Made by a program: the position numbers and the translations under genes. A stretch of DNA of 64,000 nucleotides from a virus. This document shows positions 26,964 through 27,024 of this stretch, piece after piece (position 1 is the stretch's first letter; each line of letters opens with the position of its first letter). Location of the stretch: positions 1-64,000 of the IMG/VR virus record IMGVR_UViG_3300042301_005314; one strand, given 5' to 3'. The notes under the pieces are model-generated. The model ran no database searches. It was not told where the DNA came from and was given only the letters and a program-made list of their open reading frames with translations.

Positions 26964-27024
26964 TGGTGGACAATATCGGAATCGAACCGATGAATCAGAG
27001 ACTCTACCACTGAGCTAATTGCCC
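26964..27024 (-). tRNA. Anticodon-arm-less tRNA-like gene with G3-U70 (Ala-like)
   Basis: Only 61 nt: acceptor GGGCAAT/ATTGTCC (7 bp including G3-U70), TA, D arm GCTC-AGTGGTA-GAGT, just 9 nt, T arm ATCGG-TTCGATT-CCGAT, A73, CCA. The anticodon arm and variable loop are missing. G3-U70 with A73 is the alanine identity set, read by AlaRS without the anticodon. Confidence 0.65.

Follow-up and report, generated by a model that had tools for sequence, protein, structure and literature searches.

Anticodon-armless tRNAs in phages and an adjoining gene for a small zinc-type protein

Natural tRNAs are known to lose either the D arm or the T arm while retaining the anticodon. The anticodon itself is not required for every charging reaction, and AlaRS charges minihelices that harbor the G3:U70 pair without one. 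The tRNA-Leu of E. coli is also still charged when both its anticodon arm and its variable arm are removed (PMC9976931). In the tmRNA-SmpB system, the tRNA-like domain corresponds to the upper half of a tRNA and SmpB mimics the anticodon arm (PMC3022190). Mycobacteriophage DS6A encodes little beyond such a tRNA-like domain (PMC4131195). Within the open literature, from which bioRxiv preprints and most subscription papers fell outside the search, so that novelty carries that caveat, no paper was found that deals with natural tRNAs that lack the anticodon arm. From a whole natural class, described here, only this arm is missing, with the requirements for charging retained. In one widespread group, which includes that of the window, an armless tRNA occurs beside a gene for a very small, hitherto unclassified zinc-type protein, as detailed below, and this points to an RNA-protein device, so far unrecognised, that acts on host translation.

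The armless tRNA and its locus

The window, which is the whole stretch of viral DNA that was analysed, is 64,000 nucleotides long and belongs to a 97,750-base virus record in which there are 22 tRNAs called by ARAGORN together with a tmRNA (Table 1). On the minus strand, from 27024 to 26964, lies an RNA that reads GGGCAAT-TA-GCTC-AGTGGTA-GAGT-CTCTGATTC-ATCGG-TTCGATT-CCGAT-ATTGTCC-A-CCA. This confirms the original prediction of intact acceptor, D and T arms and an encoded CCA, with G3:U70 in a fully paired acceptor followed by A73. The prediction had also taken both the anticodon arm and the variable loop to be missing. The former is indeed absent, but the latter is not simply so, since one reading of the 9 nt of linker gives nucleotide 26, about 3 nt, and then 5 nt that resemble a variable region and have C48 as their last base; it is the anticodon arm alone that is gone from the tRNA fold. 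Anticodon nucleases act on the anticodon loop, and the idea that the RNA serves as a decoy for them finds no support here, as that target is lacking.

The Rfam tRNA model RF00005 gives the RNA a score of 44.3 bits against a gathering threshold of 29 (E 3.6e-6 over 64 kb), and it is not called by ARAGORN. Compared with a decoding tRNA, it has the acceptor, D and T arms of the cloverleaf and is without an anticodon arm bearing an anticodon; both elements of tRNA-Ala identity, G3:U70 and A73, are found; and of tmRNA it has neither the mRNA-like frame nor the pseudoknots, its size being only 61 nt. In silico, an alternative hairpin is better by 0.7 kcal/mol. A covariance model of the class scores the RNA at 68.7 bits, the RNA being among the 18 members from which the model was built, and the best full-length tRNA of the window at 35.1. 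The identical sequence is found in two other IMG/VR contigs (L001 and L002), and an assembly error is therefore unlikely. Chance resemblance to a tRNA was rejected on the Rfam E value of the window RNA and on class-wide covariation that is reached in 0 of 500 shufflings.

Table 1. Positions of the armless tRNA, its parts and its neighbours in the window
Feature	Position	Strand	Remarks
Anticodon-armless tRNA-like RNA, 61 nt including CCA	26964..27024	(-)	structure reading; Rfam; class model; identical in L001/L002
Acceptor 5' strand GGGCAAT, G3 = 27022	27018..27024	(-)	7/7 pairs with 26968-26974
D arm GCTC-AGTGGTA-GAGT, 4-bp D stem	27001..27015	(-)	
9-nt linker CTCTGATTC replacing the anticodon arm; readable as nt 26, about 3 nt and a variable-like segment	26992..27000	(-)	
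T arm ATCGG-TTCGATT-CCGAT, 5-bp T stem	26975..26991	(-)	
Acceptor 3' strand ATTGTCC (U70 = 26970), A73 (26967), CCA (26964-26966)	26964..26974	(-)	
Partner protein, 62 aa, basic N-terminus, eight-cysteine zinc-type C-terminus	26770..26958	(-)	ATG 26958, 5 nt after CCA
ORF, 104 aa, stops 6 nt before the RNA	27031..27345	(-)	seen only in near-identical contigs; not counted in the module
Phage tmRNA gene, possibly related, outside the module	27787..28230	(-), upstream of the RNA on the same strand	89.9 bits
Block of about 1 kb, missing as a unit from relatives L124/L125/L126	26334..27339	(.)	

Three relatives (L124, L125 and L126) match the window at about 99% identity on one side of the locus and are without the entire block, which contains the armless RNA, the gene for the 62-aa protein and portions of the adjoining reading frames. 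The armless-RNA locus was thus gained or lost as a unit. Nor does the class model detect an armless RNA at any place in the records of L124 and L125 (G040 and G041). No relative carries a full-length tRNA at this position, the closest ones lacking the whole 1-kb block, and origin by simple deletion from such a tRNA was accordingly rejected, in keeping with the prediction. A regional BLAST against cultured phages gave no match for the window locus or for two further loci, L042 and L018.

Some other features of the window may be recorded. Neighbouring reading frames at 26084-26757 have in common a repeated tail ('..IDYQL') and a repeat of about 60 bases, close to where the block missing from L124 has its edge. 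At 38785-38852 (-), adjoining a tRNA-Met at 38705-38778, Rfam gives 40.6 bits to a tRNA-like stretch of 68 nt that is missed by ARAGORN, and at 23473-23565 (-) a 93-nt tRNA-Glu call has a low Rfam score of 35.9 bits, a second and normal tRNA-Glu being encoded at 35109-35184.

A class of armless tRNAs in phages

The armless tRNA of the window is not an isolated deletion, and the class to which it belongs is common in phages. Two pattern scans of viral contigs, in which the letters of the D arm and T loop and a short gap were fixed and the acceptor was not selected, returned 118 and 110 stretches, giving 159 distinct elements (combinations). The acceptor is paired at 7/7 positions in 108 of the 159 and at no fewer than six in 133, as compared with 1.2% and 4.4%, respectively, for strand-shuffled sequences. 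The outer T-stem pairs are complete in 141 of these elements, and the linker measures 8-10 nt in 113. Acceptor sequences are very diverse across the class, and within families the pairs are kept by double changes, such as GCAGGTT/AACCTGC and GCAGGCT/AGCCTGC. Rfam classifies RNAs of the class solely as tRNA. Armless genes are missed by ARAGORN and only some are caught by Rfam, so that a layer of phage translation biology goes uncounted, even if its mechanism differs from the one proposed below.

In temperate phages, of Levilactobacillus and others, an armless element follows or precedes the gene for a late transcription activator, with the HNH/terminase genes on its other side, and elements of this type occur, unannotated, in Lactobacillus phages LBR48 and Lb. 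In one Levilactobacillus-type prophage (L142, 14440-14740 (-)), the armless tRNA has two flanking neighbours, a tRNA-like RNA whose mini anticodon arm is of 3 bp and a third odd tRNA-like stretch, and none of the three is called by ARAGORN. A 180-kb viral contig (L138) harbors three armless tRNAs at three sites, with a transposase-type gene (phrog_506) nearby. A scan of bacterial genomes gave a mixture of prophage elements, N-masked artefacts and a distinct Bacteroidota chromosomal type with unpaired acceptors. The N-masked short tRNAs in bacterial contigs were excluded as artefacts, and the Bacteroidota elements (L260, L293, L295, L297 and L346), whose D and T arms lie close together and whose acceptor is unpaired, represent a different type.

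A protein partner and the identity of the RNAs

Two larger facts lay outside the original prediction, namely that the class is widespread and that the gene 5 nt downstream, whose start at this distance had been correctly given, encodes a conserved partner. The proteins of this family are 60-75 aa in length, with a lysine/arginine-rich N-terminus and a nearly invariant C-terminus, at the extreme end of which is found the motif C-x2-C-G-G...W-C-x2-C...C-C...G-T-C-x-C-S. The cysteines suggest that the protein binds zinc. There is no family match in Pfam, PHROGs, NCBIfam or PADLOC, and one group of armless tRNAs thus has a conserved partner that is missing from the family databases searched. Six members compared with Pfam gave no match worth the name, including to the SmpB domain (PF01668), which is present in only one of 20 partner-carrying records and there at another locus; SmpB is also more than twice the size of the partner. 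The sole hint of a fold comes from PDB chains, where the best match is a weak and non-significant profile resemblance to bL32 (E 0.14), which likewise combines a basic N-terminus with a zinc ribbon, and this is no evidence of homology. No relative was found in cultured phages by tblastn, one run giving only chance-level matches (E 2 or more), nor in 395 bacterial genomes from the phylum of an Emticicia genome, a scan that had no positive control. In L036 and L184, a gene that stops 5-6 nt short of the armless tRNA encodes a second type of small protein, with a basic N-terminus and another cysteine-containing end (..CNGDC), which is possibly an alternative partner family.

The partner gene was first noticed adjoining several other armless tRNAs and was then sought by protein alone. 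Such scans brought out relatives in otherwise unrelated phage neighbourhoods, including loci that the RNA patterns had not returned. An armless tRNA adjoins or lies near the gene in nine of the 12 lineages found in this way, in each case on the same strand (L354, L355, L358, L361, L364, L369, L370, L371 and L373). In total, the pair is present in 17 lineages, within about 20 nt in 16 of them and at 0.3 kb in L354, with the RNA upstream or downstream of the gene depending on the lineage. The records of two divergent protein groups (L359/L360 and L374/L375) are devoid of armless RNAs, and for L376 none adjoins the gene, the one in its record being about 47 kb away. A profile search over all loci gathered to that point found the partner only at loci already recovered. 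No third gene is common to more than three of 18 loci. At most of the loci recovered solely through the protein, the surrounding 3 kb contain no full-length tRNA, and the pairing is therefore not a by-product of tRNA clusters. In L124 and L125, RNA and partner gene are both absent through the single 1-kb deletion. A phage module of two genes, for an armless tRNA and a small zinc-type protein, is well supported and very probably real.

Covariation was followed in 18 partner-linked RNAs, made up of the 17 adjacent or near ones and L147, in a MAFFT alignment that was not fitted to structure. Standard pairs occupy 97.6% of 288 cells (98.6% for the D stem), both sides having changed in 69 cells, and the linker ranges from 7 to 11 nt. 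The covariation score is 0.721 compared with 0.218 when shuffled (0/500), and slid controls do not exceed 0.157. Under the class model, these RNAs score 60-74 bits, and scores of up to 50 are reached by full-length tRNAs, a separation that is descriptive and not independent evidence because the model was built from the partner-linked RNAs themselves; armless elements without the partner, which are not in the model, reach 45-71 bits. Comparison of the protein with the acceptor type gave Mantel r values of 0.17 and 0.20 (155 and 81 of 5000 permutations), from which shared ancestry was not removed, and co-evolution of the two is suggestive only.

A non-decoding tRNA with alanine identity elements had been suggested, and conservation in relatives supports this. 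G3:U70 together with A73 is found in 11 of the 18 RNAs, which include the close pair L362 and L365 and are thus not fully independent, compared with 7 of the remaining 135 armless acceptors (Fisher 4e-8). The acceptors of the 11 otherwise differ from one another. A73 alone is present in 18/18 partner-linked RNAs and in 71/135 others. The loci studied contain 371 full-length tRNAs, and G3:U70 occurs in 15 of these, of which 11 are tRNA-Ala. On the basis of these identity elements, most partner-linked armless tRNAs are probably charged by host AlaRS. The remaining seven, without G3:U70 and with acceptors TGG, TGC and GGT, would need another synthetase, or none.

Possible modes of action and known systems

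The RNA represents the upper half of the L-shaped tRNA, consisting of the acceptor, the T arm and the D-arm elbow, and as such retains what RNase P, the CCA enzyme, AlaRS and EF-Tu need while being unable to read a codon. Host AlaRS would charge most of the partner-linked versions with alanine, and the adjacent basic zinc-type protein of 60-75 aa would bind the armless RNA and replace its missing anticodon arm. By analogy with the tRNA-like domain of tmRNA and SmpB, the charged ribonucleoprotein might then form and enter ribosomes without a codon, where it would rescue, release or block them for the benefit of the phage. The explanation as a whole, in which an alanine-charged upper-half tRNA and an anticodon-arm-substituting protein act on ribosomes, is tentative but may quite possibly be right; action specifically in the manner of tmRNA-SmpB is possible, if somewhat doubtful. 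A full-length tmRNA is carried by 6/20 phage records with the partner and by 0/20 controls (p = 0.02), a modest enrichment in a small sample; the controls were records of phages with armless tRNAs and without the partner, whose two matches were 60-nt pieces and were not counted. The record of L190 (L384) contains, at 997-1056 (-), a 60-nt piece like the tRNA-like domain of tmRNA; a tmRNA 5' end of canonical appearance follows about 150 nt later, and the arrangement may be that of a permuted tmRNA in two pieces or may reflect a copy of the domain alone.

Among other explanations, the armless tRNA, charged or not and stabilised by the protein, could act as a decoy that ties up, and thereby disables, a host factor recognising acceptor and elbow, such as SmpB, AlaRS, EF-Tu or a defence enzyme directed against tRNA. 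A DS6A-like molecule does strongly inhibit tmRNA, perhaps by titration of SmpB and whether or not it is chargeable (PMC4131195), and armless elements without alanine identity are common. However, a phage with a tmRNA of its own, such as that of the window, would gain little from a blockade of SmpB, and pure titration does not account for the higher frequency of G3:U70 among partner-linked RNAs; this role is unlikely. It is less probable still that the alanyl-armless tRNA serves as an aminoacyl donor away from the ribosome, on which a transferase or a reaction that extends peptides would draw, the small protein being its carrier or its substrate. Charging identity without the ability to decode would be in keeping with such a role, as would a nearly invariant partner C-terminus that could be a modified end, and pseudo-tRNAs with extra-translational roles are known (PMC3399842); yet neither a transferase nor a third gene is widely common near the module, and the invariance may stem solely from metal binding by the last cysteines.

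The small basic protein could also be a toxin or regulator with the armless tRNA as its RNA inhibitor, as befits a compact two-gene unit that occurs in either order, is lost together and is portable across unrelated neighbourhoods. This, too, is improbable, in that the retained tRNA identity elements are not accounted for, there is no PADLOC match, and most carriers are large phage contigs, for which a stabilising module has no evident use. A leftover tRNA fold that is cut by RNase P and RNase Z to free neighbouring mRNAs would suit the nearly back-to-back RNA and gene, and the element between late activator and HNH/terminase genes in temperate phages, but is a similarly remote prospect, as the element lies on either side of one gene family rather than beside random genes, needs neither G3:U70 nor A73 for processing, and shows acceptor covariation that argues against a relic.

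Returning to the alanine-charged RNA and its anticodon-arm-substituting protein, entry into ribosomes would make the pair a counterpart of tmRNA-SmpB that is derived from a tRNA and small enough for dissection in vitro. That this natural and putatively aminoacylated class, with a dedicated zinc protein in place of the anticodon arm, constitutes a minimal equivalent, independent in origin, of the device by which tmRNA-SmpB enters ribosomes, giving phages codon-free action on them, is a doubtful proposal. Designed molecules such as minimal tRNA-Leu and tRNA-Ala minihelices offer a parallel in that they are charged despite their losses, but they are laboratory constructs and not natural genes. 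The pseudo-tRNA tRNA-Other of Bacillus cereus is likewise a tRNA-like RNA kept outside decoding, whereas it retains a Trp anticodon, is chromosomal and has no reported partner protein (PMC3399842). DS6A provides a phage-encoded upper-half tRNA reduced to little beyond the tRNA-like domain (PMC4131195), but that molecule is tmRNA-derived with no partner reported, and the present RNAs are set apart, by description, through a canonical tRNA D arm and an accompanying protein; the D arm argues against an origin from tmRNA of the DS6A type. In some respects, the module mirrors the tRNA-like domain of tmRNA with SmpB, since both combine an upper-half tRNA with G3:U70, A73 and no anticodon arm with a small basic protein. 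However, the present RNAs have no mRNA-like part, possess a complete D stem, unlike the domain of tmRNA, measure 57-61 nt to the discriminator, and are accompanied by an unrelated protein of zinc type.
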